DNA from: Alopecurus myosuroides
Lineage: Eukaryota; Streptophyta; Magnoliopsida; Poales; Poaceae
DNA length: 64,000 nucleotides
Direction of reading: 5' to 3'
Assembly: GCA_028641055.1 (NCBI GenBank)
Contig: CM054059.1
Coordinates: forward strand, 44,652,477-44,716,476
Shown here: piece by piece, positions 869 through 57,150 of the stretch
Numbering within the stretch: position 1 is the stretch's first letter
Layout of the letters: each line of letters opens with the position of its first letter
The notes under the pieces: generated by a model
What the model was told of the DNA's origin: nothing
Database searches by the model: none
The model's input: the letters and a program-made list of their open reading frames with translations, nothing else
Position numbers and translations under genes: made by a program

Positions 869-3649
869 ATACTCCAGTTATGGCCAAATCAATTACCTCC
901 AAAATCACTGCTAAATTAAAGAATCTTAGATATGCTTTGAAGTATTGGGGAAGGAATTTATCTCAACTAAAGATTCTTATTGAAATGAGTAGTAAAGTGA
1001 TCTTGTTCCTGGACCAATTGGAGGATGTGAGGAAGTTGAGTGTTCCTGAATTTAATTTCAGACTTATTGTTAAAAAGCATATCAAAAATTTGCTTGCTTT
1101 ATAGTCTGATTACTGGAAGCAACGATGTACTATTCGATGGGCTAAGCTTTCTGGTGAAAATACTAAATACTTCCATGCCAGAGCCACTGAGAGGTTTAGG
1201 CGAAATTCTATTCCATCCATCTCAGATGCTTCCGGGAATTTGTTGGTGGATCATATGGACAAAGCTGCTGCTTTTTGGTCCTGTTTTAAGAACAGAATGG
1301 GTGTCTCCTGCCCACCCATGACTGATACTGATTTGTCTGTTTTCTTGCCTGTGGTTGAGGGTTTAGAGATTCTGGCTAATCCCTTCACTGTTGAGGAGAT
1401 TGAGGGTGTTGTAAAACACCTAAAACCTGATCGTGCGCCTGGCCCAGATGGCTTTACAGGGCTATTTATTAAACACTGTTGGAGTATAATAAAAGAGGAT
1501 TTTATCAAACTATGCAATGAATTTCACAGTGCTAAGATCTCTTTGGAGAGTATTAATGGCTCTTTCATTACTCTTATTCCAAAGATTAATTCTCCTGAGA
1601 CAGTGAATGATTTCAGACCTATTTCTCTGACCAATACTTGTTTGAAATTTATCACTAAAATTCTGGCTAATCGTTTCGAAGATAAAATCTTTGGATGCAT
1701 CCATGCTAATCAATATGGTTTCATCAAATCCAGAACTATTCAAGATTGTCTGGCCTGGTGTTTTGAATACATTTACCTAGTGTAAACAGTCTAAGCAGAA
1801 AGTGGTGATTTTCAAGATTGATTTTGAGAAAGCTTTCGATACCATTGAGCACTCTGCTATTCTGCAAATTTTGAGATTTAAGGGATTCCCTCCCTTAGTG
1901 ATAAAATGGGTCAAGGAAATTCTAGCCTCTGGATCATCGTCGGTTCTGTTAAATGGTGTTCCTGGCAAGCCTTTTGTCTGCAAAAGAGGTGTCAGGCAGG
2001 GTGATCCATTGTCACCAATTCTATATGTGTTGGGTGGGGATCTGCTGCAAAGTATTGTTAATTTGGCCCTAAGAGAGGGAAGACTCCGGTTGCCAATTCC
2101 AATAGGTGGAGATTTTCCTATTGTTCAATATGCTGATGACACTTTAGTCATATTACCTGCTGAATCGGCACAATTGTTGGTAGATCTGCTTAACCTTTAT
2201 GCTCATATCACTGGGTTAAAGGTGAATTATAACAAGTCTTCTATGATACCGATCAATCTATCACAGCAGGAAACTGTTGATCTGGCTTCTGTTCTGGATT
2301 GTACTGTGGCCTCTATGCCCTTTACATACTTAGGCTTGCCCATGGGAACCACAAAACCAACTATCAAGGATTTTGCACCACTAATTGACAGAATTGAGAG
2401 GAGACTTTCTGCTACAGTCTCATTTCTTTCTTATGGGGATAGTTTGGTTCTTGTGAATTCGGTTCTATCCTCCTTGCCCTCATATTACATGTGCACACTT
2501 GTAATACCTAAAGGTGTCATTGACATAATTGATAAAGCAAGGAGGAGATGCTTATGGAGGAAGGACAAAAATAAGCAAAGAGTGAATTCTTTAGCTGCTT
2601 GGGATATGGTATGCAGGCCCAAAAACAAAGGAGGTTTAGGGATCATCAATCTTCAGATTCAAAATAGAGCTCTACTACTGAAATTCTTGGCAAAATTCTA
2701 TAACTCTATGGATATCCCTTGGGTCCATTTAGTCAAGAATGCCTATTATTTCCAGTCAGTACCACATGCTGTGACTTCCTGTGGTTCTTTCTGGTGGAGA
2801 GGTGTTATGCAACTAGCTGATACTTGGTGCTCTTTATCTTCTTGCATTATGGGAAATGGATTTACTGGGCTTTTCTGGAAAGATTCGTGGATAGGACAAC
2901 CTTTGGCACTAAAATTCCCGAGATTATTCTCCTTTGCCAAGGATCCTTTGTCCTCAGTAAGAGATTTATTAATGATGACAGATCTCTCGGATGCTTTTCA
3001 TTTGCCGTTTTCAAATGAAGCTTTCCAGGAGTATACTGATCTGCTAGTCATTGTGGCTAATGTTCAGTTGACTGACAGTGAGGACAGTTGGAGATGCAAT
3101 TTCAATAAAGGGGTATATACCTCAAGTAAATTCTACCAACTACAATTTGCTCATTTGCCTCCTGATGGGCCTGCAAAATGGATCTGGAAATCCAAATGCA
3201 TGTCAAAGCATAAATTCTTTGCTTGGTTGATTCTCAAGGATAGGATTAATACAAAGGATATGATCAAACGAAGGAACTGGAAGATTGAAGGCACTGATCA
3301 CTGTGTTCTTTGTTGCACACATTGCCATGAGGATTGGATCCATCTGTTCTTTCAATGTGTTTTTAGCTCTCGGATTTGGAACTATTTGCAAATCAGCTGG
3401 AGTGATAACACACTTGTGCAAAATCTTACGCTTGCAAAAAAGTCTTTCAAAGGACCTTGTTTCACTGAGATAGTGATTCTTGCATGCTGGAATATTTGGA
3501 AGCAGAGGAATGGAGTCATTTTTAAATCGGAAAGACATTCCTTTATGGGATGGAAAGTGGGCTTCTTGTTAGATCTCCTTATGCTTAAGCATAGGTTGAG
3601 TGCTTCTGTGGCTGCTGACTTAGCTTTATGGATTAATTCCCTAAATTAG
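865..3649 (+). pseudogene. LINE reverse transcriptase and zinc-binding C-terminus, broken
   Basis: Homology runs in frame 1 from 865 to about 1785 and then in frame 2 to 3649. Frame 1 holds the linker, an amber codon at 1102-1104 where family members usually have Gln before SDYWKQR, and RT blocks APGPDGF, LIPKI and FRPISL. Frame 2 holds motif A (KIDFEKAFD), the RQGDPLSP block, motif C YADDT with both catalytic Asp, the GLPMG block, and a zf-RVT type C-terminus with WKSKCMSKHKFFAWL and Cys/His spacing around 3295-3355. A one-base shift near 1780-1790 separates the frames. The RT active site itself looks intact, so decay is recent to moderate. Confidence 0.9.
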
Positions 3650-30055: not shown

Positions 30056-31732
30056 CTCCTGGTCGTCCTCGAGTAGGTAAGTGATAACAAGATAATTTTT
30101 GAGTTGACATGAAGCCAACACAAATCTTGATCAACGTTATGTAAAAGCATTGCAAAGCTGAGATCAAAGTACTTTAACAAAGGCATGATAAATAATATTT
30201 CAACTGATGTAAATTTAGCAACCATGTTGCACATGAAAAGAAACACAAACAAAAGAAATGAATAATGAAACATTGAAAGTGATATGGTTGTTTGAATCAT
30301 AAAGAGAAGCATAATAAAGTGGTATGCAGCTAGTCCTTCGTGTGGTTGCAAAACATAAATGTTAGGATACCTTCAAAGTTTAAATGGTGACAAGATACAA
30401 ATAATTCGAGAGGAAGCAATACCAAAAATCATGAATCAATCAATAATAATTTTGGGACTATGCACATTATACTCAGAATGATAACTATGCTCTCTTAGTT
30501 GTTGCATAAAGTAATAAGATGAAGACTCAACATAAAAGTAAAACAAAGGCCCTTCGGAGAGCGAAGCAGGGATTACGCATGTGATAGACCTTTTTATTTG
30601 ATAAACAGAGGTATTGAAAACAAATTTGAGATAGGTGTATGTCTATGTCAACGAATGGTAATGAAAAAATTATCATAATCCATGTCAAGCAAAGTTTTAG
30701 ACTTTTGAGATCTATTTCCGTTGTTTTATTAGTTTTCCACTTGCCCCCACCTTTATTTCACAAACCAGGGCTAGCCATGTATACGGGTACCCACTAGCTT
30801 TCACCAAACCATGGGGAAGTGCATTTTAGTTGTTATTCGGCACCAGCTCTCTGCAAATTTAGATGAGTACAGATTCCATACTCATCGGGTGAAATAAGGA
30901 AGAAATTTGCTTGACACAAACCATAAGAAACTTTAAACTACTTCCTCATGAGCTAAAACAAGAACAGAAAACAGGTTATTAGTTTTGAAGGTTTAAAGGT
31001 AGCACACGAGAAATTTACTTGGAGTGGCGGTTGAATAACATATATAGGTATATATGGTGGACACATTTGGAAAACTTTGGTTTTTGGGAGTTGGATGCAC
31101 GAGTAGAGCTCATATTCTGTATAGGTGTAGGCTAGCAAAAGACTGGGAGCGACCAACTAAGAGAGCAATAACGGCCATAATCGTGCAAAGCAAAAAAATC
31201 ATCATTAATTAAAACATGAAGTGATATTACAAGTCAAAAACTAAATGATCATCAAGGCTAGATGTGAATTTATTGTAGTCATAACATGGTGTGAGCATGC
31301 GCCAAGTTAATCCAGATAAATCATTCAAAGGAGAAATACAACAAAACCATGCTTCAATATGACAAAACAACACATGATTAAATTCAAGGGCACATTAAGC
31401 ACTCTCAACTATTTGAGACTAGTCATGGTACATCATATACTACTAAGCACACAATTAAAATAAAATCTAACATTACATGCCAAAGCCTAAGCCACAGTCA
31501 AAACAAGCTTCCTATTGCACCACTACAAGCATGAAAAATTTACTCTTCTCCAACACCAATCAACTTATTCGAAACAACTCTAAAAGAAAATAATCATCAA
31601 AGAACAGAGATCTAATAAAATACAACTAAAGCAAACCAACAAGCTCTGAACAAAATTCGAGTGAAAATCAAGAGCTAAACGTAGTACTAGCAAAAACTGA
31701 ACACTCACAGAACAATAAAAGTGAATACTAGA
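30056..31732 (-). other. Element A internal region, 3' part, non-coding
   Basis: 1.7 kb without credible coding sequence. Next to the tract, the minus strand has a CTACTCGAGGACGACCAGG segment like the CTACTCGAGGACGAG of element C. The rest is A/T-rich. The piece ends in AGA at 31730-31732, duplicated after the CACTA insert at 40110-40112. Confidence 0.6.
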
Positions 31733-32050
31733 CACTAGTGGAAACAACCCCTCTCGTCCAGGGGGCCGGGGGGCAGCTGTCCCGGTTGCAACCAAATCCG
31801 GGACAAATGCCCTGCATTGGTCCCGGTTCGTGCGCCCGGGGCAACAGGAATCGCCTGGGCGCATTGGTCCCGGTTCGTGGGGGGTATGTCGGTCCCGGCT
31901 CTTGCCACGGACCGGGACCAATGCCTAGCCACAGGCCACGTGGCACGCGCATGACCTGTTGTCCCGGTTCAGTCCACGAACCGGGACCAATGCCCCTTCC
32001 CCTATATATACTGCCCCAGCCCCTCCCTCCTTCCATCTTTTTTTTTGCTT
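31733..32050 (+). promoter_or_regulatory. CACTA 1 left end: subterminal repeats and TATA box
   Basis: GTCCCGGTT motifs recur in both directions (about 31782, 31821, 31866, 31913, 31962 and 31979). Such subterminal repeats bind the second transposon protein in characterised CACTA systems (En/Spm TNPA). A TATA box CCCCTATATATACTG at about 31999-32013 lies 270 bp before the transposase ATG. It probably drives that gene, with a 5' UTR intron ending at GCAG 32276-32279. Confidence 0.6.
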
Positions 32051-32279
32051 GGAGGTGTGAGAGAGTGTGGTGTTAGTGTGTTTTTTTTTACTATGCACAC
32101 GAGGTGTTCGACGAAATTCCCGAGACGCGCACATGCTCACTGAAAATGGTATCTTCGACCGAGGTTAACAAATTATCTTTTTCATCTGTAACTGATACAT
32201 AAAAAAGTATTATTTGTCGATGTACTGTGGTCATCTCTTAATTAATATGTATTTTGATAAACTTAATTATATGATGCAG

Positions 32280-35200
32280 ATGGATGCACGGCAGCGATGG
32301 ATGTACGGTGACCGACGCACTTCCGAGTATATGGCAGGCCTGAATGCATTTCTTGCTGTAGCTCAGGCGAACAAAGATAATGGCTTCATGTGTTGCCCAT
32401 GTGTTGATTGTCGGAACGTCAGAGAACATTCTTCCGAAAGAATCCTTCACGGCCATCTACTTCGGAGAGGTTTCATGCCCAGCTATAATTGCTGGACCAA
32501 GCATGGAGAAAGAGGGGTTGTGATGGAAGACGATGAAGAAGAAGAAGAAGATCCTTCGTTCCCTGAATACGACGATACTGCAATGGAAGAGAATGCAGAA
32601 GAAGGAGGTGATCAAGAACAGCCATCAGAAGAGGCCGATGATGATCTTGGCCGAGTTATTGCTGATGCAAGGGAAGACTGTGAAAATAAATTGGAGAGGT
32701 TGAAGCTGGACAACATGTTACAGGATCACAAAAAATTGTTGTACCCAAATTGCGAAGATGGTAGCACAAAGCTCGGTACCACACTGGAGTTGCTGAAATG
32801 GAAGGCACAAAACGGTGTGACTGACAAGGCATTTGAGAGTTTACTTCAACTAATGAAGCCAAAACTTCCAAAGGATAACGAATTGCCTGAGAGTACGTAC
32901 GAAGCAAAGAAAGCTCTCTGCCCTCTAGGATTAGATGTGCAGAAGATACATGCATGCATTAATGACTGCATTCTCTTCCGCGGTGAGAAGTACGAGAATT
33001 TGGATGAATGTCCGATATGCACTGCACTGCGGTATAAGATCAGAGCAGATGATCCTGGTGATGTTGACGGCGAGCCCCCCCGTAAGAGGGTTCCTGCTAA
33101 GGTGATGTGGTATGCTCCTATAATACCACGGCTGAAACGTCTGTTTAGAAACAAAGAGCATGCTAGGTTGTTGTGATGGCACAAAGAAGACCGTAAGAAA
33201 GATGGAAAGTTGAGGCACCCCGCCGATGGATCGCAGTGGAGAAAGATCGAGAGAGACTTTCCAGACTTTGCAGGAGAGGCGAGAAACTTATGGTTTGGTC
33301 TAAGTACAGATGGCTTTAATCCTTTTCGGGAGCAGAGCTCCAGTCATAGCACTTGGCCTGTAACTCTATGTATGTACAACCTTCCTCCTTGGTTGTGCAT
33401 GAAGCGCAAGTTCATTATGATGCCAGTTCTCATCCAAGGCCCGAGGCAACCTGGCAACGACATTGATGTGTATCTAAGGCCATTAGTGGAAGAACTCTTA
33501 GAACTGTGGGGCAAACCAGGTGTACGTGTGTGGGATGAGAACGAACAAAAGCCATTTGACCTACGGGCGTTGCTTTTCGTGACCATCAATGATTGGCCAG
33601 CTCTTAGTAACATTTCCGGTCATACAAACAAGGGATACAATGCATGCACACACTGTTTAGATAAGACTGACAGTGTTTTTTTGGATAAATGTAAAAAGGT
33701 TGTATACCTGGGGCATCGTAGATTTCTTCCGATCAAGCATCCCTTAAGGAAAAAAGGAGGGAAGCATTTCAGAGGTGAGGCAGATAACCGAAAGAAGCCT
33801 GAGCTCCGTAGTGGTAATGATATATTCGATATGGTCAAGGACCTAGAAGTAATCTTTGGTAAGGCTGCTGGCAGCCAACCAGTTCCGTACGGCCCTGATA
33901 AGCGGGCACCCATGTGGAAGAAGAAATCTATATTTTGGGAGCTACCCTATTTGAAAGTTTTAGATGTCCGGTCTTCGATCGACGTGATGCACGTGACAAA
34001 GAATCTATGTGTCAATCTGCTATGCTTCCTGGGCGTGTATGGGAAGTCAAAAGATACGCCTGAAGCACGGGAGGACCAGCAACGTATGAAAGACCCAAGC
34101 AACAAGCACACAGATACAGGGCGCCATTCCTTAAGCAGCTACGCTCTTACTAAAGCAGAGAAGGAAATATTCTTTGAAGTCCTTTACAGTATCAAGGTTC
34201 CGTCTGGCTTCTCGTCGAATATAAAGGGGATAATAAACATGGCAGAGAAAAAATTCCAAAACCTGAAGTCTCATGACTGCCACGTGATTATGACACAATT
34301 GCTTCCGATTGCATTGAGGGGGCTTCTACCGGAAAATGTTCGAGTACCCATTGTGAAGCTATGTGCATTCATGAACGCAATATCTCAGAAGGTAATCGAT
34401 CCAGAAATTCTGACAAGATTACAGAGGGATGTGGTCCAGTGTCTTGTTAGTTTTGAGTTGGTGTTCCCACCATCCTTCTTCAACATTATGACTCATCTCC
34501 TTGTTCACCTATGTGAAGAGATTCATATTCTCGGTCCGGTCTTTCTACACAATATGTTCCCCTTTGAGAGGTTCATGGGAGTCTTGAAGAAATATGTTCA
34601 TAACCGTGCTAGGCCAGAAGGAAGCATCTCGAAGGGCTATGGAACAGAGGAGGTCATTGGGTTCTGTGTTGACTTTATTCCTGACCTTAAGACAATTGGT
34701 GTTCCTGAATCGCGACATGAGGGGAGACTGAGGGGAAAAGGAACGCTGGGAAAGAAAACAATGATACCTAGGGACGGGCATTCTTTGACCAAAGCACACT
34801 ACACAGTTCTACAAAATTCTATGTTCATGGCTACGTATGTCGAGGAACACAAGAATATTGTACGGTCTGCAAACCCGGGGAAGGATGACTCATGGATTAA
34901 ACGCGAACACATGGAGACTTTCGGAAGTTGGTTGCAAACACGTCTTATAAATGACACCACTGTTGAAGATCAGCTATACATGTTGGCAGGGTCACCATCT
35001 TCGACTATTGGGAGTTTTCAAGGGTACGAGATAAATGGAAATACATTTTACACGAGCTCCCAAGATAAGAAGAGCACCAACCAAAACAGTGGTGTCCGCT
35101 TTGATACAACAAACGAGAATGGAAAAACTGACACATACTATGGTTACATAGAGGAGATATGGGAACTTGACTATGGACCTTCTTTTAAGGTCCCTTTGTT

Positions 35201-35582
35201 CAAGTGCAAATGGGTCAACCTGAATGGAGAAGGGGTAAAGGTAGACCCGCTTTATGGAATGACAACAGTGGATCTCAACTGTATTGGTTACAATGATGAA
35301 CCATTCGTTCTAGCCAATGATGTGGCTCAGGTCTTCTATGTGAAGGACATGTCTTCCAGACCGAAGAAAAGAAAAAATAAGGGAACAATTTCATCATACG
35401 ATGAGCCGAAGCGTCACATAGTTCTCTCAGGGAAAAGAAACATCGTGGGAATCGAGGACACGACAGACATGTCAGAAGATTATAATAAGTTTGTTGAAAT
35501 TCCACCCTTCACAGTGAAATCTGACCCCACCATCCCGTTAAATAATGAAGATGCTCCATGGTTACGGCCGAAGCGATCATAA
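32280..35582 (+). pseudogene. CACTA TNP2-type transposase, one nonsense codon
   Basis: 1100 codons in one frame from ATG 32280 (MDARQRWMYG) to the stop at 35582, interrupted only by TGA at 33174-33176. It has the N-terminal transposase-associated domain with a Cys/His cluster (CCPCVDCRN). An acidic linker follows (about residues 80-145, Glu/Asp-rich). Then comes the Transposase_21 region (WNEPPRK-like DGEPPRKRVPAK, LSTDGFNPF, YNLPPWLCMKRKF, DIDVYLRPLVEELLELW, HTNKGYNACTHC), DUF4218-like (MTHLLVHLCEEI, HNMFPFERFMG) and DUF4216-like (Y..EEIWELDYG..KVPLFKCKW) C-terminal parts. Relatives read LLRWHKED where this copy has LL-stop-WHKED, a CGA to TGA change typical of CpG deamination. The start was chosen because a likely intron acceptor precedes it. 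Apart from the stop it looks functional. Confidence 0.88.
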
Positions 35583-35997
35583 GCAAGGGACACGAAGAAA
35601 AGCTGGCAAGCATTATTGTTCCACCATCCCACTTTTCTGTTTCTCTCTCCTCCGTATGTTGGTGATGTGTAATAATAAGCGTGGAATACATGATCATATA
35701 GTTCTGTTTGATTAGTATTTTGTATTGACCGGTAAATAGCTGACAACTATGACCCATATCCGAATACATTTCGAAGTGATAGTACGGATAACATCCTGAC
35801 AGATATTGCAGGATTATAACTACTTTTAAGATGTAGTATCTGTTGACACACGGTATAGAACAAGCGATTGTTATTCATTGGAGTTAACCACCATAAACAA
35901 CACAAAAAAGTTTTGACTGACTGCTTTACATCGATAGGCCTTATGGGTGTCATATATTCCGCGCACATATTGCAGGCACACCATATTAATTTGAGGC

Positions 35998-36174
35998 ATT
36001 GGAGGAGGAGAGATAGCTTTGCACAGGCTTGGCATCCACATGAAGACAGTGATTTCAGTTGAGATAGGTGAAGTTAATAGGAGGATTCTGAGGGGTTGGT
36101 GGGATCAGACACAAACTGGCACTTTAATTGAGATTGCCGACGTGAAGTCTCTCACTAATGATAGAATTGCATAA
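35998..36174 (+). pseudogene. DRM methyltransferase fragment (duplicate)
   Basis: About 177 bp repeat 37195-37371 of the larger ORF with only a few changes (for example CACAGG for CATAAG and GACAGTG for GACAATG). It covers the segment after the SAM-binding FSGIGG, including WWDQTQTGTLIEIADVKSL. Homology starts at ATTGGAGGAGGAGAG and ends near ATTGCAT. The flanks are unrelated. It sits about 415 bp after the transposase gene. Either a second capture or an internal duplication produced it. Confidence 0.8.
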
Positions 36175-36585
36175 TCTTGAAAAAACCTTTGCCTTGATCG
36201 TCCAAGATGTCCCAGTAGTGGTGCTCAGCGCCTTGTCTGCATGTTTCGCAGGACATGCCCATTTTACAGTGTAGAAACATCTACAGAAAAGAGCAAACAT
36301 CTGTAAACTAGGCAGAGGAGAAGTAGAATCAGGTAGAGAAACATTAGAGCCGATGAGAAGTACAAATAGCATATGGAGAGAAACAAGGTTTAAAAGATAT
36401 TGCTAGGTGCTTCCGGCCAAAAGATTATCAAATCAAAGTTTTGAAATTCTCAAATCAAACCATAAGTTCACAAAGCATACGCAAACATGGACCATTACCA
36501 ACCTGAGCCGCAAGGAGCAGTAGAGCAGAGCAGAGCAGACTCTAGAGGATGGACAAGCAGCCAGGACTGACATCGACTCTAGAGG

Positions 36586-37614
36586 ATGAACAAGCCACCC
36601 TACTTCTACTATGAAAATGAGGCCCTAGCTCCAAAAAGTGTATGGGTGGAAATTTCCAGAAATTTGTATGACATAGAGCCGGAGTTTGTGGATTCTAAGC
36701 ACTTCTGTGCAGCTGCTCAAGAAAGAGGCTACATCCATAATTTGCCAATTAAGAATAGGTCACGTCTCCTTCCTCTCGCTCCAAAGACCATATTTGAGGC
36801 ATTCCCTCATTATGAGAACTGGTGGCCTTCCTGGGATCCTAGAAAGCAGCTCGATTGCTTGCAAACCCGTCTGGCAAGTCCAATTCTGATAAAACAGATC
36901 GAACGTACTCTTGCAGGCTCAAGTAATCCACCACCTATAACTGTTCAGAGGTATGTTATGGACGAGTGCAGAAGATGGAACCTTGTTTGGGTTGGAAAGA
37001 ACAAGGTTGCCCCTCTAGAGCCAGATGAGATGGAATTTTTACTCGGTCTCCCAAGAAACCACACAAGGGGAGTCGCCAAGAGAGAGAGGTACAAATCTCT
37101 TGGCAATTCATTCCAAATTGATACTGTGGGTTGCCACTTGTCGGTGTTAAAGAACATGTTTCCCAATGGTGTTAATGTGGTGTCCTTATTCTCCGGTATT
37201 GGAGGAGGAGAGATAGCTTTGCATAAGCTTGGCATCCACATGAAGACAATGATTTCAGTTGAGATAGGTGAAGTTAATAGGAGGATTCTGAGGGGTTGGT
37301 GGGATCAGACACAAACTGGCACTTTAATTGAGATTGCCGACGTGAAGTCTCTCACTAATGATATAATTGCATCATTTATTGCTAGATATGGTCGCTTTGA
37401 CTTTGTGATTGGGGGTCTGGAGGGCGAGCAACCTGCTTTATTCTACCACTATTCTAGAATCTTGAAAGCCGTTAAGTCATCTACAACAAGTCTGATGCTC
37501 CCGCTGCGTACACGGAAGTTACTATGTTTTCAAGCGGGGGTCGGGATAAAGGGAAAATACGTGGGGATGCGCAGAGTAAACCTTCGAAGGAAAACTATGG
37601 TTTTTCTGTTGTAG
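36586..37614 (+). CDS. DRM-type DNA methyltransferase-like ORF, motif IV missing
   Basis: 342 codons from ATG 36586, no intron. It matches the C-terminal catalytic half of plant DRM (domains rearranged) methyltransferases, which perform de novo cytosine methylation in RNA-directed DNA methylation. In order: PPYFYYEN (motif VI, normally ENV, here ENE, residues 10-12), DIEPEFVDSKHFCAAA, WWPSWDPRKQ, WNLVWVGKNKVAPLEPDEME, SLGNSFQIDT, motif I FSGIGGGE (202-209), WWDQTQTGTLIEIADV and FDFVIGG (to 277). Family members then have a Pro-Cys-Asn segment of about 16 residues; here GG277 joins directly to LEGEQ. Thus the catalytic Cys is absent while the frame stays open. The N-terminal UBA domains are absent too. 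The last 43 or so residues after AVKSS are unrelated. It lies between the transposase gene and an opposite-strand gene inside CACTA 1. DRM genes normally have introns, so a cDNA-derived copy is likely. Protein production is unproven. Confidence 0.82.
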   Translation: MNKPPYFYYENEALAPKSVWVEISRNLYDIEPEFVDSKHFCAAAQERGYIHNLPIKNRSRLLPLAPKTIFEAFPHYENWWPSWDPRKQLDCLQTRLASPILIKQIERTLAGSSNPPPITVQRYVMDECRRWNLVWVGKNKVAPLEPDEMEFLLGLPRNHTRGVAKRERYKSLGNSFQIDTVGCHLSVLKNMFPNGVNVVSLFSGIGGGEIALHKLGIHMKTMISVEIGEVNRRILRGWWDQTQTGTLIEIADVKSLTNDIIASFIARYGRFDFVIGGLEGEQPALFYHYSRILKAVKSSTTSLMLPLRTRKLLCFQAGVGIKGKYVGMRRVNLRRKTMVFLL

Positions 37615-38340
37615 ACGAAAATCTCAAATTCACCGTGTCAATAAGGTACAATTCGCTTTGAATTAGGAAGATCACGAGAGAAATAAAAAATTGTAACATT
37701 TTTATATTCAAATTATATACAAATGAAAAAATAATTAATAGTTTCAATAGTTAGAATAATTATTTAGTTAAACGAAAAATGGATTTAAATTAGTTTTGCA
37801 AATTCTAGAATTTTTCATGTTGGAATTTTTGTCAAATTTGGAAGTATATAGAAGTTGTTAATGTGCAAACTTAACACTTTTCAAATTTTGGCGCTAAAAA
37901 ATTTTGGGCACGCAGGGGTGCCACCGAATTCGAAATTTGTTTTTGGTCCCGGGTCGTGGTACCAACCGGGACCAAAGGGGCTCTAGTCCCGGTTGGTGGC
38001 ACGGGCCGGGACTAAAGGCCCAGGTGTATAAAAAGCGCGGCCCTCTCTCCAGGCCGAGCGGACACTCGAGGGGCGGGTACGAGTGGATTTGGCTGGGCGA
38101 AGCCCTGCCGGCGGCGGGAACGAGTGGACAGATCCGCCGGCGTTCCACCACCGCCGGCGGGGATGGGGTAGGGACACAGTAGATTAGGGGGAACACAACT
38201 TATATTAAAATAAGGCCAGGGGCCTTGCTTACATAGGGGCGGCGCGGCCACAGGCGGCCGGCCGTTTCTTGGGGGGGTAGCTAGGGGCGTTGTCTATATA
38301 GAATAGGGGGGCGGCGCGGCCACAGGCGACCGGCGCCGAT
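37615..38340. other. CACTA 1 spacer with an internal CACTA-like repeat block
   Basis: 37620-37900 is A/T-rich with no gene. At 37943-38022, GGTCCCGG, CAACCGGGACC, AGTCCCGGTTGG and GGCCGGGACTAAAGG repeat in both directions, like a CACTA subterminal region, but far from either end. A TATA-like TATAAAAAG follows at 38027-38035 on the plus strand. 38100-38340 is GC-rich 3' flank of the opposite gene, with a GGGGCGGCGCGGCCACAGGC direct repeat at about 38235 and 38309. Confidence 0.5.
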
Positions 38341-39408
38341 CTAGTCGTCCTCGTCGTCGGAGATGCACTGGTAGGGGGGCGGCTGCCACAGGTGGGCAGG
38401 CGGCGCCTGGGCCGGGGGTGCAGGCATCGGGGGCATCGGAGGCGGGTACGGCGGTGGCGGGGGCAGCACCTCCTGCGGCGGCGGCGGCGGAGGGGGCAGC
38501 TCCTCCTCCTGCTCCGGCGACCCCGGCGCCCAAACGCCGCCGGTCCAGGCCCAGGTCATGCCGTACTCCAGGCCTGGTGGGAGCGGCTGCGGCTCCGGCT
38601 GGTCCTCGGACGCCTCCAGCTCGGCGTTCATCACCTGCCACCAGGGGGCAGCAGGCTCGTTAGGGGGTGGCGGCGGCGGCGGCATGGCGGCGGCGTCGGC
38701 GGCGGCGGCGGCCACGACCCGCTCCCACCGCTTGATTTCGTCGTTGATGAGGGAGCGGCGGGAGCGCTCGCAGGCCTCCTCCATGGCGGCCCGGAGCTCG
38801 GGGTCCTCCTCCCCGGAGAAGTCCTCCGGCTCGTCCACGAGGAGCCATAGCTCCCTCTCCCGGCCGGGCGCTGGCGGGGGGTAGTCGTCCATGTTGGCCT
38901 CGTGGGGGGCGGGGATGAAGGAGCGGCGGCGCAGCTCGTGCTCCTGCTCGAGCCAGGCGGCCCAGTAGGGGGAGCTGCGCGCGTACGCGCGCTCCCTGCG
39001 GACGGGGGCCGGCAGGAGCTCGCGCCGGCGGTCGACCTCCTCAAGCAGCGCCTGGCCGGTCGGGACCGGCGGCACAGGGATCCGCTGGGGGTTCAGGTGC
39101 CAGCCGTCCGGGAGGTGGACGTCGGCATAGAACACCGGAGTGGCATTGTTCCAGTGCCACTCGGCCTCGTCCACCCGGACGTACCGGCGGAACCTCTTGC
39201 CCTTGGGCGCGGCGCTGGGCGGCGGGCGTGCAGCCGGTGGTGGCGCGGGGACGCGCGGCACCCCGCCGAGGCGGACACCTCCAGGGCCGTAGCCGAAGGC
39301 CTCCGCCGGCGGTGGTGGGACGCGGCCGGCGCCGCTCGAGGAGCCGCCTTCATTCCTGGGGCGCTTGCCGGAGCCGCTGCCGGAGCCGCTGCCGAACCAG
39401 CGGGACAT
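38341..39408 (-). CDS. CACTA second protein, proline-rich (TNP1-like)
   Basis: 355 codons from ATG 39408 (MSRWFGSGSG), the likely start because it opens the conserved Ser/Gly leader; the frame is open to 39504. The protein has a basic patch (KGKRFRRYVRVD), then a core with EAEWHWNNATPVFYADVHLPDGWHL. A charged helical middle follows (WAAWLEQEHELRRRSF, PELRAAMEEACERSRR), and a long Pro-rich tail ends CISDDEDD. This ORF type recurs in Triticeae CACTA elements. By position it is the candidate subterminal-repeat-binding partner of the transposase, but its biochemistry is not established. No stop or frameshift is visible, so it is the best preserved conventional gene in the element. It runs towards the DRM-like ORF. 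The GC content is very high, unlike its surroundings. Confidence 0.75.
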   Translation of the reverse strand: MSRWFGSGSGSGSGKRPRNEGGSSSGAGRVPPPPAEAFGYGPGGVRLGGVPRVPAPPPAARPPPSAAPKGKRFRRYVRVDEAEWHWNNATPVFYADVHLPDGWHLNPQRIPVPPVPTGQALLEEVDRRRELLPAPVRRERAYARSSPYWAAWLEQEHELRRRSFIPAPHEANMDDYPPPAPGRERELWLLVDEPEDFSGEEDPELRAAMEEACERSRRSLINDEIKRWERVVAAAAADAAAMPPPPPPPNEPAAPWWQVMNAELEASEDQPEPQPLPPGLEYGMTWAWTGGVWAPGSPEQEEELPPPPPPPQEVLPPPPPYPPPMPPMPAPPAQAPPAHLWQPPPYQCISDDEDD

Positions 39409-40109
39409 GGTGGCTATGGTTGGTCTGCCTTGGGCGCGGCCGGGGGTGAATGGGTTGTACGGGCGGCGGGGGGCCTTTAAAAAGGACCCGGGGTGGGCTG
39501 GCATGCCAACCGGCGGCCTGGACGTGGCGGCGGTTGCAGGCGGCCATGAATGCGCGTGGGGAAGTGGGGGCGCGGGAAGCCGAGGCGGGGCGGGAAGACG
39601 AGGCGACTGGCCCTTTGACCGTCCTGTAGTCTTAATTTAAGGGACCAGGCGAGCCAGCCAACGGCCGCTGGCCAGTGGCCCCTACGAACCATTTGACTGA
39701 CCACGCTGGCCAGTGGGCCCTTCGAACCGTTGACTGACCATAATAAAAGACGCGGGCCAGTGGGCCCTTTTGACAAAAAAATGTGACCAGTGGGCTTAAT
39801 AAAAGACGTGGGCCTGGACGCGGTTGGGGAAGTGGAGGCCGGCTCGGGATTGGGAGACAGGAGCCCAAAAGATCGGGCTCGGGATTGTATATATTTTTTT
39901 GTCAAAAAAGTATCCATCCCGGTCCCTTGAACGAACCGGGACGAACTCCCTGGCCCAGGTTCGCCACGTGCCCTATCCTTACCATCCCGGGTCCTGGCAC
40001 AACCGGGACCAATGGGACGGGCCATTTGTCCCGGCCAGCCCATCCCGGTTGCACAACCGGGACAACTGGCCCTTACGACCCGGGACAAAAGGCCCTGTTT
40101 CCACTAGTG
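39409..40109 (+). repeat. CACTA 1 right end: subterminal repeats
   Basis: 39650-39830 has repeats of CTGGCCAGTGGGCCC and TAATAAAAGACG. From 39916 to 40089, CCCGG/AACCGGGAC motifs alternate in direction, mirroring the left end. The terminus is TGTTTCCACTAGTG at 40096-40109. Confidence 0.65.
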
Positions 40110-40230
40110 AGAGTGTTCTAGGAAATGAAAACGGAGCATATCTCTCCAAAAATAAAAGTGCTAGGATACAACCAAAATCTACATCAAAGAAAACAAAACA
40201 AACTGAAAGAAAAATAAAATGACGCTCCAA

Positions 40231-52913: not shown

Positions 52914-53089
52914 CTAGTTTCTTTGAGCTGCTGACTGAACTTGTAATATGTTCGGCCGGGGCCAAGGAAAGTGATCAATAATGTCTTCAGCTGGCTGTAA
53001 CCTTGGCTCCGTTTTGACCGTGCAAGCAGACATCCATTCTACAGAGCGCTGCGCCGTGCCGTGCATGCACATCACCTTGCCGTTGGAAT
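52914..53089 (-). pseudogene. Possible captured terminal exon in Helitron 1
   Basis: After an acceptor-like TGGGTGCAG on the minus strand, an open stretch of 58 codons starts with DSNGKVMCMHGTAQRSVEW, contains a PAEDIIDHFPWPRPNI block and ends in TAG at 52914. The composition and acceptor look like a real last exon. I do not recognise the gene. Upstream exons are not evident in the window. Confidence 0.4.
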
Positions 53090-53956
53090 CTGCACCCATG
53101 CAAAGGCTAAAGCTGAGTTGATTAAGTATTTTTTGCCCAGCTAGACGATGCTCTATCTATTCAATACCCCAAGTTGGAACAGTAACTTCTAAACTCGGGA
53201 GTCCAGATCGCAACGCATTCCTTTTTTTTCTTCATTTTGATCAAGTGCGTTGTGGACTTGTTAGTCACGTCCGGTGATGCCTCCGGCCTCCAGCAAATCA
53301 AATATCTGACCGATTAACTAACTTAAATAACATATCAATTCGAGAGTCCAGACTAACGTCTCATGGCTTTTTATTGTTTCCCATTGTACGTACATACAAC
53401 ATAAAATCGTGGTAGATTATTTGTCGCGTCCAACATGACTTATTTTTTAGGATTATCCTAGCCGTAAAACCGACATCTAACAGCTTAATTAATTTTGATG
53501 ATGTGGATTAACGTGGAGCCGTTGGAATCTGCACCCATGCAAAGGCTAAAGCTGAGTTGATTAAGTATTTTTTGCCCAGCTAGACGATGCTCTATCTATT
53601 CAATACCCCAAGTTGGAACAGTAACTTCTAAACTCGGGAGTCCAGATCGCAACGCATTCCTTTTTTTTCTTCATTTTGATCAAGTGCGTTGTGGACTTGT
53701 TAGTCACGTCCGGTGATGCCTCCGGCCTCCAGCAAATCAAATATCTGACCGATTAACTAACTTAAATAACATATCAATTCGAGAGTCCAGACTAACGTCT
53801 CATGGCTTTTTATTGTTTCCCATTGTACGTACATACAACATAAAATCGTGGTAGATTATTTGTCGCGTCCAACATGACTTATTTTTTAGGATTATCCTAG
53901 CCGTAAAACCGACATCTAACAGCTTAATTAATTTTGATGATGTGGATTAACGTGGA
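53079..53956 (+). repeat. 439 bp direct tandem duplication in Helitron 1
   Basis: Copy 1 is 53079-53517 and copy 2 is 53518-53956. Both begin GCCGTTGGAATCTGCACCC, and no difference between them was noticed. The duplicated part includes the first bases and acceptor of the putative captured exon and DNA close to the Helitron 5' end. Junction homology is GCC. Confidence 0.88.
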
Positions 53957-55410
53957 GCCTTTTATGGTGCCTCCAATTAGTAAATATAAGATATAAGATA
54001 GTCGGCTTCCAGGCTTTATTTGAAGGATACCTAGGAATAGAACCTAGATTAGATTTCTTTAAATACTGCTTCAACGTGAAGCGAAACACTTCCGACGGTG
54101 TTCTTCCGGTCTGTGGGACCATATCCTTCAACCTGCACAAAGGAAGGGAGGTATGGTTCCCAAAAAATCAAAACCTCGGAATCCGTTAAGTTTTGGACGG
54201 GTTCCTTTTTCTATCATCCGAGCGTCCCGTATCCTGGAAAGGATACAGGTATTCCTCCTTTTGAGAATTCCTCTGCCACTCCTAGAGACATCTGGGCTCT
54301 GAACATGATCCAGGTTCTTCCCACAGATCTCTTGCGGATCAGAAGGAGAATAACCAAGTTGGTCGTCTCCTCCCCGCCACTCACAGGCATGGACACTGTC
54401 CTTTGCTAGCTTGGAAGGTAGATTCAACCTCTCTCCTTCCGCTCCAGCCGCCTTCTCTGCGAGTATACTGGTCCGGAAGATGCCGTGCGGGTGACTAAGT
54501 CGGCCATGTCAGAGAAAGTCTTCCGAAAACGTGTCAACCATTTCGTGGCTACTTGTGATCAATACGAGGAAAGCCTCCAAATGTTTCACTCGGAGAACCC
54601 TCCTCCCAAGGTATGCGTTCTTTTTCTGCCTTTGGGCAGGTTTTCATACTTTTGCTTTTCACGAATGTATACTAACAAATTACCCGTGTTTTGACAGCTT
54701 AAGACTCTCATAGAGGATCAACTTGTTTCCGCGGAGGAGGAGGCTGAGCTGAAAGCCTGCTTTGCAGCGACCGGTGGACAGAAACGCAAGAAGATTCCCG
54801 CATCCATCAAAGTTATCGATCTTGACGGGGTCGCCGTCGCCACTTCCAGGCAACCTACTATTTTTGCATAATCTACTCTGTCCTTGCGCAAGCTTTTTCC
54901 TCTGATTTTTATTCTCGACTTTTCTTCCTTTGCAGTCTTTCTCCCGCTCCATTGAAGGGAAAAGGCCGGAAGAAGCAAAATGTTACCACTCATAGGGCAG
55001 CAAAGCCTTCCCCTACCACCGCCCCGGATACACCAATGACGGGTAGAGCAGAGGACCATTCTGCTCCCTTGGAAGAATTCGACTTCCCCATCCCTAGCCA
55101 GTCCAGCCTGCCTGATGCGCCCACTTTGGATGCATGGGAAAGGGCGGCACAGTACGAGAAAGGAGGGACTTACCTCGTCCATATTGACGAGGAGATTCCA
55201 TGTTATGACCAGAAGTTCAAGGTAAAGAAAGAAGCATGCTTTGACGAGCACGGCTTTATGCATTCATGGGCTAGGAATCAATTTGTCCAAGCCCCCTTGA
55301 TCCGTCCTTGGCCACAAGGCGGCCTAATTTTCTGGAATAATTACGCTTTCTTGCCTCGGCAGGTCATCCAAGACGAAATTCATCATATGGGCATATCCTT
55401 CTCTAAGTAA

Positions 55411-56077: not shown

Positions 56078-57150
56078 CTAGGTATAGAAAGGACGTAACT
56101 GCTGGATGCTCCAGGGCCTGTTTGTCTCTCCTAGCTCTACATCTATGCTTATTTTCCTCTTGCAATTCGTCTTTTTCGGGTCATCTTCAGTATTCCGAAT
56201 ATCTACCAGATAGTATGACACATTTTCCATAGCTTCGCTGATAACAAACGGTCCCTCCCAGATTGGGGCTAACTTGTGTTTTCTTTCTTGTACCAACCTT
56301 AGCACCAAGTCACCTTCCTTAAAAGAGCGATGTTTGATTTTCTGGCTGTGATATTGTCGTAAACCCTGCTAATAAATGGTGGATCTCTGCAACACAAGTT
56401 CTCGTTCTTCTTCTAAAATATCAAGGGCATCCTGTCGTGCGTTTTCGGCATCCCTCTCATCGTATGCCTGCACTCTAGGGCTATCATGGATCATGTCCGT
56501 TGGAATCACATCTTCTTCACCATAAACCAGGAAAAAAGGCGTATGCCCCGTTGATCTAATCGGCGTTGTTTGTATGCTCCAAAGCACTAGTGGAAATTCT
56601 TGTACCCATGCTCCAGCTGCTCTATGAAGAGGGGATTCGAGTCTTGGGCGTATACCTTGAAGGATTGAACTATTCATACGTTCAACCTGGCCATTGGATT
56701 GTGGTTGCGCCACAAATGCAAGATCGAGGCGGATTCCCATTTGCCGACAATATTATGTCAGCTCTCCAATTGCAAAGTTAGTCCCGTTATCCGTGATTAT
56801 GCTATGTGGGATGCCGTATCTCATGACTATGTCTATGATGAAATTTCTGGCAGTCACACCCTCAAGTTTTTTGATGGGTTTAGCTTCCACCCACTTGGTA
56901 TACTTATCTACTGCAACTAGTAGATGTGTAAGTTTGCCTTTCGCAGTTTTGAATGGCCCCATCATATCTAGCCCCCAGACCGCAAACGGACATGTTATGG
57001 GGGATAGTCTTGAGTGCTTAAGCCAGCATATTGGTCTACTTGGCGTAATACTGACATCTGGCACATGTCTTAACTGTGTGCTCTGTGTCTGTCTTGGCTG
57101 TAAGCCAGAAAAATCCTTTCCGGAATGCTTTCTTAACTATCATTTTTGAC
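56078..57150 (-). pseudogene. Element D integrase
   Basis: Minus-strand integrase that would insert the cDNA. The zinc-binding end shows CARCQYYAK near 57060. The core has LDMMGPF (first Asp), IITDNGTNF (second Asp) and QSNGQVERMN (Glu), so the DDE triad is present. The core is broken by a frame change between 56753 and 56740. The C-terminal part, KLAPIWEGPFVI to SIQQLRPFYT (56308-56078), is in another frame. No chromodomain is seen, consistent with a Tat rather than a chromovirus lineage. Confidence 0.82.

Follow-up and report, generated by a model that had tools for sequence, protein, structure and literature searches.

Has a CACTA transposon taken up part of a plant DNA methyltransferase at this locus, and if so, from which donor, by which route and to what effect? 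These questions are raised by a DRM-like open reading frame (ORF) in the window, the whole stretch of 64,000 nucleotides from Alopecurus myosuroides that was analysed. The features bearing on them are collected in Table 1.

Table 1. Features of the CACTA element and of the DRM-like ORF, ordered by position in the window
Feature	Position	Strand	Remarks
Left target-site duplication	31730..31732	.	AGA; flank ATACTAGA
CACTA (En/Spm) element	31733..40109	.	8,377 bp; ends CACTAGTGGAAACA and its inverted counterpart, flanked by AGA
Left terminal inverted repeat	31733..31746	+	14 bp, perfect
Left subterminal repeats	31779..31987	.	8 of the 20 RTCCCGG/CCGGGAY motifs of the element
TNP2 transposase frame	32280..35582	+	1,100 codons including one in-frame TGA; Pfam
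In-frame TGA within TNP2	33174..33176	+	relatives: Arg in 36 of 37 aligned, Gln in 1
Partial second DRM copy	35995..36172	+	motif I region, 178 bp, 97.2% identical
DRM-like ORF	36586..37614	+	342 codons, ATG start
DRM-homologous part of ORF	36595..37488	+	residues 4-301, methyltransferase domain; by homology
Junction VIGG/LEGEQ	37416..37417	+	48 nt encoding the catalytic loop absent
Non-DRM tail of ORF	37489..37614	+	41 codons; residues 307-342 with pLDDT below 50
Internal cluster of subterminal motifs	37946..38012	.	4 motifs, then TATA-like box; element-end-like, inside the element
387-aa frame	38341..39504	-	candidate second transposon gene; from ORF list
Right subterminal repeats	39916..40086	.	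8 motifs
Right terminal inverted repeat	40096..40109	-	14 bp, perfect
Right target-site duplication	40110..40112	.	AGA; flank AGAGTGTT

CACTA (En/Spm) elements are defined by terminal inverted repeats (TIRs) starting with CACT(A/G), a target duplication of 3 bp, and subterminal repeats at both ends. TIRs with a 3-bp duplication, subterminal repeats at both ends and a TNP2-type transposase were all found around the ORF. The AGA duplication described in the sequence-only reading is present on both sides, and its perfect TIRs hold for the terminal 14 bases, beyond which complementarity is 75% over 56 nt. Subterminal motifs are confined to the two ends and the internal cluster, with none elsewhere in the element and 12 in the remaining window. 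The internal cluster is located a few hundred bases 3' of the DRM ORF, and its TATA-like box is found as at the left end. Over these repeats (37953-38004), each strand gave a weak match to MIR5387 (28.1 and 25.3 bits); as a captured RNA family MIR5387 was rejected, the score of 28.1 bits being below the gathering score of 69. Our guess is that the MIR5387 family itself perhaps derives from CACTA-type subterminal repeats. A further terminus, CACTAGTGGAAA, was detected at position 56585. No partner turned up for it in the window with the exact end patterns used, and it may mark a different CACTA element of this family.

The TNP2 gene, which had also been recognized before, was identified by Transposase_21 (5.5e-83) and the accessory Pfam domains Transpos_assoc (9.6e-21), DUF4218 and DUF4216. 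It is full length compared to its relatives, with 80% identity over 100% in the best match when X was placed at the stop. The single in-frame TGA means that the transposase of this copy is broken by one codon, and a gene with one nonsense codon may indicate a fairly young element. On the other side of the ORF, where a second transposon gene had been proposed, the Pfam scan of the 387-aa frame gave no domain above cut-off (best E 0.12). Of the suggested position between two transposon genes, the TNP2 side is thus borne out, while the second frame is without Pfam support.

The ORF with the DRM blocks in order was found as previously described. In phmmer searches of the PDB it matched, well outside the range of chance, tobacco DRM (4onj) with an E-value of 6.3e-124 and Arabidopsis DRM2 chains with values of 1.9e-116 to 2.4e-115, while the Pfam scan returned PF00145 only. 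The order of motifs is of the DRM type, motif X (LGNSFQI) preceding motif I (FSGIGG), and both are kept. The DRM part can be read uninterrupted over 298 codons, from PPYFYYEN to two residues before the C-terminus of a relative from A. aequalis. Because it starts at PPYFYYEN, the UBA half is absent, and the ORF lacks the N-terminal UBA domains expected of an active DRM2. The tail that follows gave no Pfam match in its +1 frame (37489-37614). An AlphaFold model of the ORF product has a mean pLDDT of 78.7 and TM scores of 0.73-0.78 to tobacco DRM (4onq/4onj). A scan of the ORF against viral contigs gave no match, and seven weak matches in a scan of genome contigs (26-30 residues, 40-46%) belonged to bacterial records and were regarded as irrelevant. 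With element ends, TNP2 and DRM homology all found, the claim that a CACTA element has taken up DRM coding sequence stands.

Compared to many grass DRMs, which contain SPCNNLAGSNRHHRDG at this place, the ORF is without 16 residues, in frame, between VIGG and LEGEQ. By alignment, with the motif IV Cys taken as C587, the gap covers residues 585-600 of Arabidopsis DRM2. It includes the catalytic Cys (AtDRM2 C587), and the Pro-Cys expected of an active DRM2 is missing. The catalytic loop of DRM2, with catalytic C587 and DNA-intercalating R595, is placed at 585-596 in the text and at 587-599 in a legend of PMC10711165; measured against these limits, the whole loop is gone. The predicted product would be a methyltransferase domain without catalytic loop, which should not methylate DNA. 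If the sequence-only reading is taken to mean an active methyltransferase, it finds no support, the loop being absent here and in the nearest host-type proteins alike. That the 48 nt represent a spliced intron is unlikely, since the transposon DNA itself has the joined form, and 48 nt would be very short for a plant intron.

Exactly the same gap is present in eight other proteins (P0002-P0009), and decay of the transposon could therefore be dismissed as the cause of the missing loop. Two of these proteins are from Alopecurus aequalis, two from Lolium, one each from Puccinellia, Avena and Festuca, and one (P0005) is from a metagenome. The seven from the grass genera are full length (549-585 aa), and of the Poeae-type proteins, P0002 and P0008 were scanned with Pfam, UBA exceeding its cut-off in both. 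To put the gap into perspective, 186 DRM proteins, consisting of the ORF, the best 120 of 710 matches and 65 more among the best 120 of 970, all clustered at 90% identity, were inspected for motif IV: PCN is found in 169, the gap in 12, and five are otherwise altered or truncated there. Two DRM2-like proteins without catalytic Cys, P0084 from Eragrostis curvula (SPSNHH..) and P0184 from Triticum turgidum subsp. durum (SPRNN..), were also noted, hinting at repeated loss of catalysis among grass DRM2 copies.

Among the listed matches, the nearest relative of the ORF is P0002 of A. aequalis with 93% identity. In a tree of the methyltransferase part (54 rows, loop removed), the two are sisters (100/99). 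All nine loop-less rows of the Poeae type fall into one clade (100/100) within grass DRM2. In the same tree, the ORF nests among DRM2-type proteins of Pooideae, with the rows of Oryza, Typha, Ananas and Phoenix outside. Alopecurus, Lolium and Avena belong to the tribe Poeae, as do Puccinellia and Festuca, whereas Triticum belongs to Triticeae. A placement in Triticeae, as implied earlier, does not agree with Alopecurus (Poeae) and Puccinellia as the sources of the nearest relatives among the listed matches. The donor of the ORF thus appears, from these comparisons, to be a host DRM2 paralogue in which the catalytic loop was already lost.

The loop-less host genes look functional, as judged from their sequences, being conserved about as well as the PCN-bearing copies. 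Between Avena, Lolium and Alopecurus, with three pairs each and one chosen protein per genus, the methyltransferase halves are 82-84% identical in loop-less proteins and 82-83% in PCN-bearing paralogues, and the N-terminal halves 76-79% and 75-83%, respectively; PCN-bearing DRMs were called active from the motif alone. The host gene without the loop is more surprising than the probable passenger in the transposon.

The loop may have been lost once or twice. At almost the same position, a gap just as long is present in P0041 from Triticum dicoccoides, P0136 from Hordeum vulgare, and P0045, which groups with them. The residues at the junction differ, LE in the Poeae-type and SP or SQ in the Triticeae-type proteins. 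In all three Triticeae-type proteins motif I is changed as well (LSLSTGIGG), and P0041 and P0045 have Gln for the Glu of motif VI (QN for EN). Trees based on the methyltransferase part only unite the loop-less rows of both types (95/83 and 90/84). In the full-length tree, loop-less rows of the Poeae type are placed beside PCN-bearing rows of Poeae (92/87, unstarred), and those of the Triticeae type beside PCN-bearing rows of Triticeae (99/93). A single loop-less clade was rejected for full-length proteins (p-AU 0.003) and for the N-terminal half (2.8e-5), the latter with a long-branch warning for the outgroup P0101. Given these conflicting trees, two losses of the loop or gene conversion would both fit.

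The route of capture was judged from the exon structure of grass DRM2 genes. One frame (ORFs of 374-383 aa) contains the whole domain and the native stop in three metagenome clusters, P0037, P0078 and P0028, whose longest contigs measure 38,303, 10,968 and 10,277 bp, respectively. In five others, found on metagenome contigs of up to 2,981 bp, the frame starts with a few residues ending in LQ, followed by DNSYGG (P0033, P0038 and P0051), DFYGG (P0042) or, after YVLQ, VMDGCFDSVGERRK (P0021). A few residues ending in LQ in front of an exon-like start are as expected for a frame that opens inside the 3' end of an intron. Indirectly, these metagenome frames point to a single terminal exon for the methyltransferase half of grass DRM2, although the intronless metagenome copies could themselves be captured or processed. 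In the rice DRM2 gene, as far as described in PMC3459959, introns are located further upstream.

The lack of introns had been interpreted as a sign of capture from cDNA. If the whole region resides in a terminal exon, capture at the DNA level predicts the same intronlessness, and the apparent single exon of the host, indirect as the evidence for it is, deprives the earlier argument of its force. Entry of the DRM sequence as a retrocopy agrees with 894 bp of intron-free DRM sequence and with homology stopping two codons ahead of the host stop codon, but in the stretch read the junction shows no poly(A) tract, and the ORF is without upstream coding region, though 5' truncation could account for that absence. 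Together with the apparently single exon of the host region, these points make a cDNA origin very unlikely.

The favoured reading, which we consider probable, is a DNA-level capture from an already loop-less host DRM2 paralogue by a Poeae-type CACTA element, in which the sequence is now a passenger. It starts from what can be read directly in the DNA and the related proteins: the element's ends with their target duplication, homology to DRM, absence of the loop in common with host-type proteins, and the TNP2 nonsense codon. In this process, a CACTA element of a Poeae-type grass would have captured most of the terminal exon of the loop-less paralogue. Neighbouring element ends, with the host DNA between them, may have been joined as one mobile unit, and the internal element-end repeats would be consistent with capture of this kind, but the internal subterminal cluster could alternatively be normal in this element family. 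Mobilisation of two nearby elements together with intervening DNA is among the events described for Pack-TYPE elements (PMC8903248, PMC13317346). The captured DRM piece would then ride along as a passenger, and its product, if made, would lack both the catalytic loop and the UBA region at the N-terminus, to which the targeting of DRM2 is attributed.

The passenger status is derived from the missing UBA half, the foreign tail, the stop in TNP2 and the unconstrained-looking changes since the internal duplication. The changes in the transposon copy did not all point in the same direction. Twelve residues private to the ORF are at sites of lower conservation than expected for random changes (mean 0.636 versus 0.813, P 0.003), and six residues private to P0002 behave similarly (0.609, P 0.014). 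Avoidance of conserved sites is as expected under constraint and would count against a passenger, as would a DRM part open over 298 codons, but some of the 12 changes may predate the capture, having arisen in the host. Five positions distinguish the partial DRM copy at 35995-36172 from the ORF, three nonsynonymous and two synonymous; the ratio of 3 to 2 is close to the approximately 3.3 to 1 expected without constraint. As judged from outgroups, the three amino-acid changes occurred on the ORF side, the partial copy having the residue of P0002 and most outgroups. Conservation in DRMs at the changed sites is 0.89, 0.96 and 0.63, the two conserved residues being Arg214 and Val222. Tiny as the numbers are, with five differences, they tend towards drift once the sequence had been captured.

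Could the captured sequence nevertheless have a role? As a protein, the truncated loop-less DRM might pair with active DRM2 of the host in a dominant negative manner, resulting in less RNA-directed methylation of the element. The fold seems to be kept, as judged from the TM scores given above, and the ORF-private changes avoid conserved sites. PDB entry 4onq, which we take to be a DRM dimer-interface mutant, is altered at five residues. Among these, Arg309 and Tyr590 are kept in the ORF (ISRNLY, LFYHYSRIL), Asn replaces Phe310 and His replaces Asp591, as in some PCN-bearing DRMs, and the position of Glu283 is absent, being upstream of the DRM part. Interference of CACTA elements with DRM2 does exist in rice, as reported in PMC3459959. 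On the other hand, the UBA region is missing, a foreign tail is present, the conserved Arg214 and Val222 are hit by two of the three amino-acid changes that followed the internal duplication, and a loop-less partner could instead be a stimulator, the role proposed for DRM3 and Dnmt3L in PMC2965745. Such a dominant negative function is therefore regarded as unlikely. We judge a role as RNA equally unlikely, in which siRNAs or a miRNA from the captured sequence would act on host DRM genes, like miR820 on OsDRM2. For this role speak the precedent in rice CACTA elements (PMC3459959) and the two direct DRM copies within one element. However, inverted DRM repeats of at least 25 nt were not found in the element, though siRNAs need no hairpin, and pre-miR820, as described in PMC3459959, derives from another region of OsDRM2, namely its exon 2 and intron 3. 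With the miR820 sequence as query, no match with up to three mismatches was detected in the window, nor did any Rfam family reach its gathering score there.

The most far-reaching interpretation would be that pooid grasses possess a DNMT3L-like loop-less DRM, in which 48 nt were perhaps lost twice, in Poeae and Triticeae, which is otherwise conserved about as well as active DRM2, and whose captured domain is used by the CACTA element as a decoy against RNA-directed methylation; taken as a whole, it seems quite unlikely. The suggestion of the sequence-only reading that the element disturbs silencing retains its general precedent, CACTA elements acting on DRM2 through miR820 in rice (PMC3459959), but not an active methyltransferase, the loop being absent. 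If the ORF acts, a DNA transposon would attack RNA-directed DNA methylation at the protein level, beside the attack at the miRNA level in rice. Even if it is a passenger, there is a testable finding on the host side, full-length loop-less DRM2-type proteins in several pooid genera. Loop-less but otherwise conserved DRM2-type proteins have the shape expected of a regulatory pseudoenzyme, like DRM3 and Dnmt3L.

Comparisons with known systems revealed partial similarities. Closest in theme are the rice CACTA elements with pre-miR820, which specify a miRNA against OsDRM2 (Nosaka et al. 2012, PMC3459959). There, too, a CACTA element contains sequence captured from a grass DRM2 gene, but as a hairpin similar to exon 2 and intron 3 of OsDRM2 (PMC3459959), whereas the element at 31733-40109 has a long methyltransferase-coding piece of a paralogue without the loop, and neither a DRM hairpin nor a miR820 site was found. 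With Pack-TYPE or Pack-CACTA elements, as portrayed in PMC8903248 and PMC13317346, it shares host coding DNA between CACTA TIRs and signs of a composite structure. The Pack-TYPE rule of captured coding DNA with no transposase match (PMC8903248) does not apply, since TNP2 is present. Retrotransposons with cytosine methyltransferases likewise combine a mobile element with host-type methyltransferase sequence (PMC5890265). Those reported in that source are from dinoflagellates and charophytes, with CG methylation demonstrated, in contrast to the DNA transposon with a loop-less DRM piece described here.

DRM3 is, like the loop-less proteins, a catalytically mutated DRM paralogue without the Pro-Cys of motif IV, and has been compared with Dnmt3L (PMC2965745). 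Its origin, however, lies before the separation of monocots and dicots, and residues of motifs IX and X are missing from it too, according to the same source. The Poeae-type loop-less proteins reside inside grass DRM2, keep motif I, have a nearly intact motif X, and miss the entire loop. Nesting of the ORF within DRM2-type proteins of Pooideae argues against identity with DRM3, with the qualification that the trees were made without DRM3 rows. The anti-silencing factors of VANDAL elements are known as VANC. To these factors (KIU-carrying Vandals, PMC13317346) the ORF is alike as a class of hypothesis only, that of a counter-silencing protein encoded by the element. A limited literature search, too thin for a claim of novelty, returned no title on a loop-less grass DRM or on a DRM piece in a non-rice CACTA element.

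Outside the element, the window is marked by repeats and by further frames of mobile elements. A tandem array of about four copies of a unit of approximately 5.25 kb extends from 3749 to 24234; it is 99.4-99.6% identical in the two longest self-matches and contains no ORF of 200 aa. A perfect tandem duplication (53079-53959; two copies with a period of 439 bp, 100% identical) could be recent or an assembly effect. Directly ahead of the array, a LINE-type reverse transcriptase frame (RVT_1 and zf-RVT) is located at 1802-3649, preceded by an endonuclease-family frame at 32-868.
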